DNA from: Branchiostoma floridae
Taxonomy: Eukaryota; Chordata; Leptocardii; Amphioxiformes; Branchiostomatidae
Assembly (NCBI RefSeq): GCF_000003815.2
Contig: NC_049983.1
Span: 5,513,042-5,577,041 of the forward strand
Length of the DNA stretch: 64,000 nucleotides
Direction: 5' to 3'
Positions 16,056-23,330 of the stretch are shown piece by piece; the stretch's first letter is position 1, and each line of letters begins with the position of its first letter. Under the pieces are notes generated by a model. It ran no database searches and was not told the DNA's origin. It worked only from the letters and a program-made list of their open reading frames with translations. The position numbers were made by a program, and so were the translations under genes.

Positions 16056-19000
16056 TCAACTGGACATCCCTGTGAACTGAAGTTGTTGGCCCATCTGTGG
16101 AGACAAACAACAGTTAAAACACTTTGAAAGTAAGCAATGTTCAGTACATAACACCAGCTACAAGTCCTGATACTAGTGAAAGTACAGTACAGTACAGTAC
16201 AAGATAAAAGCAAATTATGATCACCGGGGGTGCCTAAGTATCCAGACGAATCTTGCAGAATTCATACAAGTTTTACGAAATGCATAAAAATTGTACAAAA
16301 TTCAAAAGATCCAATACTAAGAAACATAACCAATTTTATGTATTTTATGAAATCCACAGAGTTTCATGGAATTTATACAAGTATCACGGAATACAAATGA
16401 TCCTTACTCTTAGGAAAACTCGTGTGCATTCTGTAAAACTTGTGTGTTTTGAAATAGTGGATAAATTCTAAAATATCTAAAAAAAGTAGTCTATCAAACT
16501 CGTACGAATTATGTAAAATTTGTACGGATACTTAAGGAATTTTGATCAAGTACTTGTAATAACCATGTCATGATGTATTAATTTCATAGCTTTACTGTTA
16601 CATGAGAGTATTGTTTTATTTTGCAGAACAAAGTCTGTTTTATTTTCTGGCAACAGGACCATACCTCAGTGGCATGTTCTAGCCCAAAAATTACTTTGAG
16701 AACCAGGGAAGGAAAAAGCATTAAAAACAGGCAGAGGACTATCCTAGAAGTATGGGATGAAACTCCTGTGATGTCCATGAGTCAACAGCGCAGGTTCTGA
16801 TGAGTGTAAAAAGAGATAGAGAGAAGACTTACATCCAGTACAGGAATCATACCCACCTGAACCTGTGTGGGGTATGTGTAAGTCATCGTTGTCTGGCCGT
16901 CTGTGGAGATGATGTTGGCAGCTACAACAGACAAGTGCAGAAGTGTTAAGATTGTTAAGAAATCCATAGGCAATTCATTGACATTGCAACGTCCAACCCT
17001 TACAAGACAGGGAACAACGGACACTTAACCGGATAGTTGTGAGTGTGACATACTTTTCTTTAAGTCCTCTTTGCTGAATTTAAATCATATACCAGTATGA
17101 GGAGAGGAAACATGTATTTTGTAACCTTTGAATTGTTTCACCAGGTTGGCATAACACTGAATAAAGAGACTCTTTGTGGTTGTTTAAAAAGAATCTCTTA
17201 AGTTTATTCATGATTGTATTTTGTAAGTTGCTATTTGTGAATTGTTTGACAAGATGTCAAACATGGTGAATTTTTACTTACAACAACAGTATCATAGTGA
17301 CTGTGATGCAAAAATTGTACATACTTGTTTATAAAATCTTCATTAGGGAATCTGCAATTATTCAAAGCCGTTGCTACTTTATCTAGAACCTACTTTACAA
17401 CAAAAATTTGTGCAATGCACTTTTGCAAAAGGACGAAAACCTGTCAACTGTCACATAATCTAAAATGGGTCACCTGCACAAGGCAACACACTAATTATGG
17501 TTACAATTTATCTTTCTGCAATAAATATTGTTTCAATTACATAGATTGTAGGGATGTGTACATGTGTAAGTTGATATGAAGTCTAAAAGTAGAAGGAACA
17601 AAAGTAGAAGACTTACTGAAAGAATCATCGGCCCCCAGGTCTGACGCTAGGCTCTCGTCCCCTGCACCTGTAGTGGATGTGTTCATCCCTCCCTTCTCAC
17701 CTTTCATGGACTGGAAAAGAAGGAATGGACATGTTTTATCAAAATGAAATTGTAGAATTTAAAGATTCAACAACAAACAGATTGTACAATCTGTACAGTA
17801 TATTGATATATTATAAAAACCTTAACATATTTTTCTGGCTTTATATTTTAACACAAAACCTTCATACAACTTGTAAGATTAGGACAAACCGTTGCTTATA
17901 CTAAAGCAAGATTGTCCTACTGTGGAAAAAGCTAAGCAATCACTATTTTTTTGTTGAACAAAAAAGATTTTGAAGATACCACCCCTGCAGCTCCAGAGCA
18001 AGCTTTCAAGTGACCCCAACTGTTTTTTTCTTACATTAAAAGTTATGTGTCAACACAAAATCACGACCACAGCATGTCCAAAACAAAAGATATAAAAACC
18101 AGAGGTCCTGCTGCAGTACCAAGGTCAACCACCAGGAGGCCCAAAATCAAACTTGGCCCACCTACCAAATATGTTAAGAATCCATCCAAGGTATTCATAA
18201 GATATCCTAGGCCTGCTTGACATAAATTCCTCCATACAAACAGAGTAACAATACACTGTTCTAGATAGGAGACAGATATGTCAGACAACAGTTATAAGCT
18301 CTTCCAGAAGGATTCTTACCTCTCTGTACTTCTGTAGGTACAGTTTGAGTGGTTCCACATAGCTGTCGAACCCCAGAGTGGACATGGCAAACAGGATGTC
18401 CTCCCCGTTAATGGTCTTCCTCTTCTCCTGGTGACACCTGTCACTGGCTCTACAGGAGTGGTTAGGGATCATTTCATCATGTCAATCACAGCTCTCACAC
18501 TCAGAGCCTGTTTGAATGTTATTAACCTCTTGCTTGCTGATTTTTCTATTGTGACCTACATTCGTTTACGGCATAATGGTCAACCTATAGCAGAGTTTAG
18601 ATTTAAGTAAGATGTTGCTATTTACCTTGTTGGCACATACTATAGGGCAGTAAGTTTCCTTGCTGTTTCTGTAGCAGGGTATATCTTTGCAGGGAGGGGT
18701 TGATAGTCCTTAAGGGCCAAGTGCTTGTTTGAGAAACAAAATGTAGTTGGCAAGTCCTATGGGACTCTACATGTAAATGTAAGATACAAAAAAAATACAT
18801 TTAATCAAATTGATTACCTAGGACAAAAACACAAACTTGGGTTCACATTAGGGGTGGGTATCGGTACAACAAGTACGGTTCCGGTGTAGATGATCAGGTC
18901 CAGATCCGGACCTGAACCTAACTAGTAGTAGTTGTCTGAAAACTTGCTGCTGGTCGGATGTTGGACGGGTTGCTACAAGCAAGATCTAATCAGGCTAGTT

Positions 19001-22000
19001 CTGTTTCAGTTCACAAATAACAGAAAGTCACAACAATCCCCTGATGACATGTCAAGCTAGCACAAAGCTGTTGAAAGGATACTCGCTTGTGATGAAACTG
19101 ATGAACTCTGACACACACTCCTGTACACACTCTTTAGCATCCTTGGCAATCTGTCAAGGAAAACACAAAGCATTTTAAACAAGAGTAATCAACTTACTTA
19201 AACATGGACATTTTTACATAGAAAATAGTTCTTTGACAAAAATATTACATCTACTAGTGACCTAGCAAACTTTTATCTCAGTCTTTATAATTCTTATACA
19301 ATATCAAATTTGTTCAAGACAGAGAATGACGTTGCTTTTTATGATGTATCACAAACAGAGCTTATTTCATATCCTTACATGATACAATGGCCAAAGGAAC
19401 TTCTGAAATTAAAGTGCAGTAATCACTAGAAAGATATTGTTTACAAAACAACCTACTTAAACAATGTGAACAAAATATACCACATTAAAAGAAATATTTT
19501 CTTAAAACAATGAAAAAATAATAATTTAACACTACATTCTACAGACTTTCTATACTATACTACAGGGAGGACTGTTTGAATGTGCATGTGATGGTATGAT
19601 ATTACTGTAAATGTGGGTTAGTTTCCACATACATTTTGTATTTACCATTTCCGCAATATTGTGTACTAGAATCTAGCGCTGCATTCTACATGAATCTTTT
19701 TCACTTCACAAATGGAGATACTAGTACTATAAGAGGGTCTGCATGGGGTTTGTGACAATCAAGACAGACATTTACACAAAATTTGGTCACCTTGCTACAA
19801 ATAATGTGAACAAGACAGTTTTCCATACAATAATGGGAAATCAAATAGGCTGCCTACGCCTTACCGAAAAGAGCATGCAGACCCTCTTATTTCTTAAAAA
19901 TATTTGAGATCTTGTATCTTGGTAACAGTGGTCTAATACATCTACAAATTACAAGATATAGTCCAAAGAAAATTTTTACTGTTCTTCCAAATGCCTTCAC
20001 AAAAACACAATGCAATATGAATACGTCTCATTTTCTCATTTTTACCCAGGTCCCCTTCCCTTAAGAATAAGATGACATAGCATGCAAATGTTCACACATA
20101 CAAAAACCACTCAAACATGCAGATCTACACATATATGGAGAATGTAGGTAGGTGTAACGACAACATTACCTTTTCTTTTTTGGGTATAGCCTTTCTCATA
20201 ATGCGACTAATATTGTGAATGGGCAAAAACCGGTCCTGGGATTGAGCAGAAAAGAAGTGAAAACACAAAGTTAAAAACTTGCTAGGCAGGCAGATATGTA
20301 TAATATACTGAAACGTGGAAAACATTACCTTTGCCATTTTGGGGATAGAGTTTTTCATGATGCGACTGACATTGGCTATAGGCAGGAATCGGTCCTATGT
20401 GAGGTGGCAGGCGTAAAAAGGAAGAAGGGCAGAGAACGTAACACACTTTTAGGTGTCAGGAAAAGTGGGGAGGGCACACTCTTTAGGTGCAGTATGGAAC
20501 TGTCTAGCTACTTCTAGCTCAGAAGCCATCTATTTCTACAATGTAGCTATTACATATTAGACGTAGAAAGGTTGAGCATCATACGTGATAGTACAGCCAA
20601 AAGTTAGGACACATCATGACAATAGATACTAGCATTGTGCTTGCGGAAAGCTCTATCATACACAAATCACAACAACCTTAATCGTAAAAGCTGTACTATC
20701 AAGAAACAAAACATCAATGCTATTTGTGATTTGCAAAGAGTCTGAAACACTGTAAGGCCATGTTGACTTGATTATGTGGACAACATCCTCTGGGAAGCCA
20801 AAAACTGAGGCGAGCATTCGAAGGAAAAAAAGATTTGCAAAAAGTTGCATTCACTATGGAATCTAAGTGGTCACAAATGGCTAAAACACATAGTGTATGG
20901 TATACCATATAACAAATTCTTCATTTTTGTTCTTTCACATCTTTGACTTTCGATTGCCCTCAGAATTCTACAAGATTAGTCTCCTTTTTTTTCAATCTAG
21001 TCTCCTTTTTTTTCAATCTGTGACACATATTTGCTCCTTTTGAATCTACTTAGCACAAATAACAGCATGGTGAGGTGAGAAAACCTTCTTTTGGAAACAG
21101 AGGGAAAATGATATGTGCACTGATGTCATCCATATTTTTTACTATCATTATTGAATCAACATGGCCCAAGCAGGAAATACACGTATATTCATAACCTACA
21201 ATATTAACAGGGAAAAAAAAAACAACTTTGCATACAAAATAATGTCTTTGGTAGATGGTTAAGTAAGATAGGATTGACATGTAGAAATAAGGGAAACAGA
21301 AGACTTTATCTCAAACTCCATACACATAATTTTGAAAGTGAAAGTGAAACCATCCCAGAAGAGATGGTTTTACTTTCACTTTCAGGAGAGTCACCTGTTC
21401 CTGTAGTGGCTCCACGCCCACGTGTTCGCGGAGGCTGTCACCGTCTTTGTGTCCTCCGTCATCATCCCCGCCGCTCGCTATACTGTCATTGGCCGACGCA
21501 CCCGTCGCACCTGGGAGCATCAAGAGACGATTGGATCTACCTTTCAGTATAACTCAATTTACAGCAATTTTACATTTTTCGTCAGGTCCTTATGACAAGC
21601 CAATGCAACTTATCTCATGCAATTTATCTCATTTTTATTCAGTACTTTTCATCTGATCATGAATGTGTCAAAGACAACATGATATACAAGTGTTCACACA
21701 CAAAGTAAACATTGTAGGAGGTCCTCGGTTCCCTTCTTCTGATGAATTGTTTGTTTTTTTTGGGTTTGGAAATTTTTCATCGGCAAGGCACAGAAATTCT
21801 GAATAATTGATGGTTTTAAGAAAAGTAGTAGAGGCGTCATATACTGCGACTGAGTGTTTTTGAGAGCTTGAAGGACAAAATGGATGAAACAATTTAAAGG
21901 CATTTTAACAGTAATGTCATTCAGAATGAATACAAAAAATGTACTAGTAGTAGTTAAAGTAGGTATACTTACTGTCATCTAGGACATAGCTGTAGTCGTT

Positions 22001-22704: not shown

Positions 22705-23330
22705 CAAGCACCGCCAAACTGACCATGCTAGGGCTGGGTACCGGTACAGAAAATTCAGGTCCAGGTCCGGGTCCAAAAGATCAGGTCCAGGTCCGGACCT
22801 GAACCTGATGCAGTATGACTCATACCAATGGTCCATTTTACATAGAGATCTGTTTGGTGGAGTATTAGACTTACACTGGCGTTCTAAAAATCCTTCAACG
22901 CTAACTGCACCTGTACGATTGGCTGTAAAACTTGGTAGAAATTACTATAAACTCTACTTTACTTCACTCTTGTTATTTTCTTCCACCTGCAAGCGACCAA
23001 ACGTGTGAATGCCTGATGAAATAATCTGTTAATCTTCTAATCGGTCCAACATCCGGTACACCTTATTTTTTCAGGTCCGGTTTTTCTGGACCGGTCCAAT
23101 AAGAAAAACCGGTTTTGTACCGGTACGCTGTACCGATACCCAGCCCTAGACCATGCCAAACAGGACTGTACCTTCTAGCGTAATTGGTTTAACTTTAACA
23201 GTTCGGTTTGTGATCTGTCGGCCCGGGTTTGAATCCTGGGACCCAAGAGCCTTTCTTACAACAAGTGTACTTATAATACTAATAGTTATATCTAGCCTGA
23301 GTTTCAGCCTGGTTAGTTTCCCTACCCATA
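22705..23330 (+). repeat. tRNA-derived SINE-like repeat, copy 2, split by a DNA transposon
   Basis: The SINE head (AAGCACCGCCAAACTGACCATGC up to 22728) resumes after the transposon at 23149 with the rest of the copy, including box-B-like GGGTTTGAATCCTGGG at about 23224-23239. The interruption is the hAT-type element at 22729-23148. Confidence 0.6.
22729..23148. mobile_element. Non-autonomous hAT-type transposon with perfect 8-bp target duplication
   Basis: The ends TAGGGCTGGGTACCGGTAC and GTACCGATACCCAGCCCTA are inverted repeats. The 8-bp duplication GACCATGC flanks the 420-bp element at 22721-22728 and 23149-23156. An 8-bp duplication is the mark of hAT elements. No transposase is present. 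The interior repeats AGGTCCAGGTCCGG and related motifs. Remnants occur at 18851-18920 and about 54700-54765. Confidence 0.85.

Follow-up and report, generated by a model that had tools for sequence, protein, structure and literature searches.

Does a lancelet NF-YB gene carry two alternative exons for the same part of its histone fold, and could the animal make two versions of this protein by choosing between them? The CCAAT-binding factor NF-Y occurs widely among eukaryotes, and a preliminary description of the locus proposed that two neighbouring NF-YB exons encode interchangeable versions of the first histone-fold helix. We analysed these exons within a stretch of 64,000 nucleotides of Branchiostoma floridae DNA (the window; positions 5513042-5577041 of contig C5), and genome searches covered 513,431,437 bases in 431 contigs.

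Results

Two copies of exon 4 in a lancelet NF-YB gene

NF-YB is a minus-strand gene in the window, and its histone fold is split over exon 4, present in two copies (4a and 4b), exon 5 and exon 6. The features considered here are:

21395-21510, minus strand: NF-YB exon 3, 116 nt, ending in ...EPLQEQ, 3' end at phase 0, AG before and GT after
20329-20394, minus strand: exon 4a, 66 nt, coding for helix 1 in its canonical form and for most of loop L1
20236-20328, minus strand: intron between 4a and 4b, 93 nt, yUnAy candidates at +58 (20271) and +71 (20258)
20170-20235, minus strand: exon 4b, 66 nt, coding for helix 1 in a divergent form and for most of loop L1
20116-20121, minus strand: TGCATG, +49 past the 4b donor, possible Rbfox-type site
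20081-20086, minus strand: TGCATG, +84 past the 4b donor, possible Rbfox-type site
19083-19150, minus strand: NF-YB exon 5, 68 nt, 22 residues and GA
18320-18449, minus strand: NF-YB exon 6, 130 nt, remaining histone fold up to ...LQKYRE

Exons 3, 4a, 4b, 5 and 6 all have AG/GT borders and matching phases, and the frame of exon 3 runs on into either 4a or 4b. In-frame splicing of exons 3, 5 and 6 with 4a or 4b gives a complete NF-YB histone fold. With either exon, positions 2-65 of the 65 positions of PF00808 (CBFD_NFYB_HMF) were matched, at 98.0 bits for 4a and 94.6 bits for 4b (cut-off 21.4 bits), and the top PDB matches were human NF-YB chains, at 175.4 bits (4a) and 168.6 bits (4b). In the profile and PDB queries the last residue, which lies outside the histone fold, was V instead of the gene's S. 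Coverage of nearly the whole family profile, together with human NF-YB chains as best hits, confirmed the earlier identification of the gene as NF-YB.

Exons 4a and 4b each have 22 codons and phase 0-0, with AG before them and a common donor, GTAATGTT, after them. Their starts lie 159 nt apart, with a gap of 93 nt, so that the two tandem exons with splice borders of their own in the preliminary description are both present. Each encodes helix 1, as proposed there, and also most of loop L1, so the exons are not confined to the helix. Identity amounts to 49/66 bases and 15/22 residues, and the pair is the longest among 10 direct-repeat families in 19070-21530 (79 nt, 77%), which rules out chance resemblance: 4a and 4b are homologous and tandem duplicates. 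As adjacent homologous exons of one gene they are tandem duplicated exons, and they also share the similar length, preserved splice sites and frame, and homology by which mutually exclusive exons are recognised in the available text of PMC3228551 (66 nt, phase 0-0, AG/GT).

A 78-nt query of 4b DNA with its flanks had a single match in the genome, itself, and an 89-aa NF-YB query had two genome matches at E 0.001 or better, both inside the NF-YB gene. These results reject an extra genomic copy, a retrocopy or a second haplotype behind 4b. PF00808 itself was matched at least 31 times across the genome (150 of 158 candidates scored), once in the NF-YB gene. Many of the other matches cluster closely on C13, C15, C12, C11 and C19, and these clusters were taken for histone genes.

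Coding constraint on exon 4b

The 17 base differences between 4a and 4b are distributed over the three codon positions as 4/4/9, leaving 8 codons identical, 7 silently different and 7 with a replaced residue. Estimates for the pair, which rest on few codons (n=22), were dN 0.18 and dS 1.37 by NG86, dN 0.20 and dS 0.72 by LWL85, and dN 0.27 and dS 0.47 by YN00, the last a weak signal. When 17 changes were placed randomly on 4a, seven or fewer residue changes resulted in 1.8% of 100,000 trials, and in 0.18% of 100,000 trials the exon was free of stops and its BLOSUM62 sum at least as good as the observed one. A stop-free outcome alone arose in 75% of placements and is not evidence by itself. The spread over codon positions and the random-placement trials support a coding pattern of change in 4b.

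Neutral drift was simulated with 4a as the ancestor, a reasonable choice because five NF-YB segments from the PDB alignments all resemble 4a more than 4b (15, 17, 18, 14 and 15 identities for 4a; 12, 15, 13, 12 and 12 for 4b in the same order). At 0.2 substitutions per site, 21% of 20,000 trials still had frame and borders intact and an identity of 15/22 or more. Retention fell to 3.9% at 0.3, 0.44% at 0.4 and 0.065% at 0.5 substitutions per site, and to 0 at 0.7 and 1.0 (20,000 trials each). With at least 17 differences required in addition, the fraction was at most 0.075% at any tried rate. Simulated neutral decay seldom yields the pattern of 4b, which therefore argues that 4b was coding-constrained for much of its history.

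Compared in register, the introns beside 4a and 4b agree at 28/80 positions on the acceptor side and at 34/80 on the donor side. The local-alignment score of the 93 nt downstream of each exon was reached by 23/300 shuffles (46/300 without the first 8 nt), and that of the 93 nt upstream by 171/300 (168/300 without the last 4). The exons are far more alike than these flanking introns, and were thus conserved while their surroundings drifted. A long-dead duplicate is disfavoured by the silent/replacement pattern and the neutral-drift simulations, and by these tests, which are blind to a recent loss of function, 4b has very probably been a working exon at least until recently.

Residues that distinguish the two copies

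In what we take to be human NF-YB numbering, 4a and 4b differ at seven residues: 62 (Ala/His), 64 (Val/Ile), 69 (Lys/Arg), 70 (Asn/Lys), 71 (Ser/Ala), 75 (Met/Lys) and 76 (Ala/Glu). Position 62 is Ala and position 64 Val in all five compared NF-YB segments. Residues of the 4b type occur elsewhere as Arg69 in NF-YB6, Lys70 in NF-YB2/3, and Ala71 in human NF-YB, NF-YB2/3 and HapC; Lys75 and Glu76 are found in none of the five. Judged by these segments, the changes that stand out are His62 and the Lys-Glu pair in L1, with Ile64 being mild. The net count of K+R minus D+E rises from +4 in 4a to +5 in 4b, with one Glu gained too. Of the earlier claim that 4b adds a His and basic residues, the His in place of Ala62 therefore stands, and the basic gain proves to be only mild.

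According to the part of a review available to us (PMC5222873), the putative DNA-binding region of NF-YB lies in helix 1, which also makes stabilising backbone contacts next to CCAAT, a placement that agrees with the earlier proposal of a swap within a DNA-contacting element. Since the 4a/4b segment would lie near the DNA backbone, the two forms are likely to differ in how they grip DNA non-specifically or in their flank preference, features that 4b may alter. Reading of CCAAT itself, being the work of NF-YA, would be less likely to be affected.

Possible routes to exclusive splicing

Mutual exclusion of 4a and 4b is an interpretation, the more so in its strict form, and we compared the pair with the routes by which exclusion could be enforced. 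Inclusion of both exons and skipping of both stay in frame, and NMD would thus be unable to remove either product; with 66 nt and phase 0-0 in each exon, the pair provides no frame-shift/NMD route. Consensus sequences of U12-type donors and branch sites served as a reference for incompatibility between U2- and U12-type splice sites. The shared donor GTAATGTT matches the U12-type GTATCCTT at 5/8 positions, and the U12-like branch sites upstream of 4a and 4b reach only 6/9 and 5/9, so that the two exons share a donor without U12 features and no U2/U12 incompatibility was seen between them.

In the 93-nt intron, a branch A in a yUnAy context occurs only at +58 and +71 from the 4a donor, as predicted from the motif, and the final AG ahead of the 4b acceptor lies at +50. 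Because the branch-point candidates exceed the steric donor-to-branch-point limit of about 50 nt given in the available portions of PMC7969005 and PMC5740500, steric hindrance is borderline at best. Among three inverted repeats of at least 14 nt in 19070-21530, none connects one intron flanking 4a or 4b with another, and the fold of the 401-nt region around the exons was less stable than that of 100/100 shuffles; pairings that are shorter or reach further may escape this search. Steric hindrance, NMD, U2/U12 incompatibility and RNA pairing were each considered as enforcers of exclusion, and none found clear support. In the human set of mutually exclusive exons, as far as described in the accessible text of PMC5740500, steric interference is compatible with 57/629 clusters and U2/U12 incompatibility with 5, and 377/629 (60%) hold exons with a length not divisible by three. 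As 4a and 4b follow none of these three routes, regulated choice or imperfect exclusion remains.

The two TGCATG motifs behind 4b would offer one means of regulation, as a downstream Rbfox site favours exon inclusion. TGCATG is absent from the 93-nt intron and from the intron preceding 4a. Two or more TGCATG occur in 0.47% of 100-nt stretches on the NF-YB strand, with the 4b site counted, and in 0.13% on the other strand. Because the motif was picked after the fact from ten motifs counted, it is a lead only, and the pair is no more than suggestive of Rbfox-type control. A third TGCATG at +291 after 4b was discounted as a regulatory site, since it sits in an arm of a repeated element.

Other features of the NF-YB introns

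The element that contributes this third motif is a stretch at 19729-19890, in the intron after 4b, bounded by perfect 17-bp inverted repeats. For its inner part (about 37-170 of a 194-nt query), scoring of 40 among 876 candidates gave at least 39 other genome matches of 82-84% identity, and the element is probably MITE-like. A further stretch at 22727-23148, whose two ends by eye carry GGGCTGGGTACCGGTAC... and ...GTACCGATACCCAGCCC, looks like another inverted-repeat element, and a region at about 18845-18960, in the intron after exon 5, has a similar start, likewise by eye. Just downstream of the exon 3 donor, at 21333-21384, lies an inverted repeat of 22 nt, with 95% complementary arms separated by 8 nt, that could form a hairpin near this splice site. 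The intron preceding 4a contains a 21-nt unit in two exact head-to-tail copies (20977-21018).

The intron between exons 5 and 6 (18450-19082, minus strand) resembles a U12-type intron of the minor spliceosome. Its donor GTATCCTT agrees at 8/8 positions with the U12 consensus, and ATCCCTAAC, which ends 11 nt ahead of the acceptor, agrees at 7/9 with TTCCTTAAC. A U12-type donor alone is not rare, since the 8-mer class RTATCCTT occurs four times on each strand of the window.

Discussion

Taken together, we consider it fairly likely, from the arrangement and change pattern of the exons, that NF-YB 4a and 4b are constrained tandem copies that serve as alternatives, with mostly just one of them entering a given transcript. 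An ancestral 66-nt exon for helix 1 and most of L1 was duplicated in tandem, as the homology of the copies shows; 4a remained canonical and 4b diverged under coding constraint, a course supported by the pattern of changes. The pre-mRNA would then be spliced mainly as 3-4a-5 or 3-4b-5, and the animal can probably make two NF-YB proteins through exon choice, differing at seven positions. The 4b form would carry His for Ala62, Arg-Lys for Lys-Asn at 69-70 and Lys-Glu for Met-Ala at 75-76. Both forms should pair with NF-YC in the histone fold, with the family-profile scores as the one line of evidence. Speculatively, 4a may be the default form and 4b would be subject to regulation, perhaps by an Rbfox-type factor that acts through the two TGCATG sites to promote its inclusion.

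Three other accounts share the tandem duplication and differ in how 4b is used. One holds that 4b enters transcripts rarely or to a varying extent, tolerated but without a distinct function. In line with it, four of the seven changes (V/I, K/R, N/K and S/A) are mild or are seen, or nearly so, in other NF-YB segments; the His where all five segments have Ala, the Lys-Glu in L1 and the constraint pattern point instead to a copy kept for a different role, which leaves this account unlikely. We regard as improbable that both exons are included together (3-4a-4b-5), which would set a second 22-residue helix 1 ahead of the fold. Such a joint product would be in frame owing to the phase 0-0 exons, splicing of the 93-nt intron is quite plausible given its branch-point candidates at +58 and +71, and a precedent exists in the COE helix exon of vertebrates (PMC2394523, in the part available). 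However, the alignments shown for NF-YB chains from human, plants and Aspergillus are gap-free in the 4a/4b segment, so that double inclusion would lengthen the fold with an unusual extra helix, and no protein of this kind was found in the searches made.

It is also conceivable that 4b, as a duplicate now dead or dying, escaped constraint only recently. His at an otherwise invariant Ala could mark early decay, and recent death would escape the sequence tests used. Yet the frame is open, the AG/GT borders are intact and the acceptor of 4b is pyrimidine-rich (13/16, compared with 11/16 for 4a), while silent changes equal replacements in number and long neutral decay is disfavoured. We therefore hold a dead or dying 4b to be very improbable, and prefer the reading in which transcripts mostly take one exon or the other.

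A bolder form of this preferred reading is a regulated lancelet splice switch in the NF-YB histone fold, shared among lancelets, in which an Rbfox-type factor drives 4b and two CCAAT-binding trimers grip DNA or nucleosomal DNA differently by cell; we put this forward tentatively and regard it as rather doubtful. If true, such a switch would be the first reported splicing swap of an NF-YB core element. Two helix-1/L1 versions of one gene, identical in the rest of the protein, would be a natural pair for studying DNA grip, flank preference and nucleosome access.

As to novelty, our search by titles and abstract starts, with most subscription journals outside it, showed no report of an NF-YB histone-fold swap by splicing among the papers listed, consistent within that reach with the earlier statement that no helix-1 splice swap is known. 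In the literature joining NF-YB and amphioxus, amphioxus appeared only in a reference title, and the main texts of PMC9741552 and PMC5740500, in their available parts, do not mention NFY or NFYB. Counting against novelty, NF-Y subunit genes of yeast and mammals have multiple splicing isoforms in general (PMC5222873, in part). Tandem alternative exons in transcription factors are already known, and the NF-YB histone fold is the unexpected place for them.

Among such known cases, E12 and E47 of TCF3 arise by a swap of bHLH exons, in the DNA-binding and dimerization part of the protein. Both TCF3 and CUX1 are listed with mutually exclusive exons in the accessible text of PMC5740500; they resemble NF-YB as transcription factors with alternative exons, but are bHLH or cut-like proteins and not histone-fold subunits of NF-Y. 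The human exons of that set share with 4a and 4b the adjacent homologous copies of equal length and phase, the same part of the fold and splice sites of their own, whereas exclusive use is only proposed for the lancelet pair and no steric, frame or U2/U12 enforcement is evident there. COE/EBF likewise has a tandem copy of a helix exon in the dimerization motif of a transcription factor, but in vertebrates the duplicate is always included beside the original (PMC2394523, in part), while use of either one is proposed for NF-YB. Splice variants of the same CCAAT-binding complex are known for NF-YA and NF-YC, where they differ in activation domains according to the available part of a 2024 review (PMC11802806); in contrast, the 4a/4b change falls in the NF-YB histone fold. 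Another comparison is offered by the plant LEC1/L1L-type NF-YB (PMC6652802, in the part available), a divergent form used alongside the canonical one, in which a Lys/Arg-to-Asp change at the DNA face is said to matter for CCAAT-flank selectivity. NF-YB6 reads RIMRR, near the RIMRK of 4b; the LEC1/L1L-type forms, unlike 4b, come from separate genes, and their Asp is not at any 4b position. If the regulated switch between 4a and 4b is true, one gene would do in lancelets what LEC1-type paralogues do in plants.
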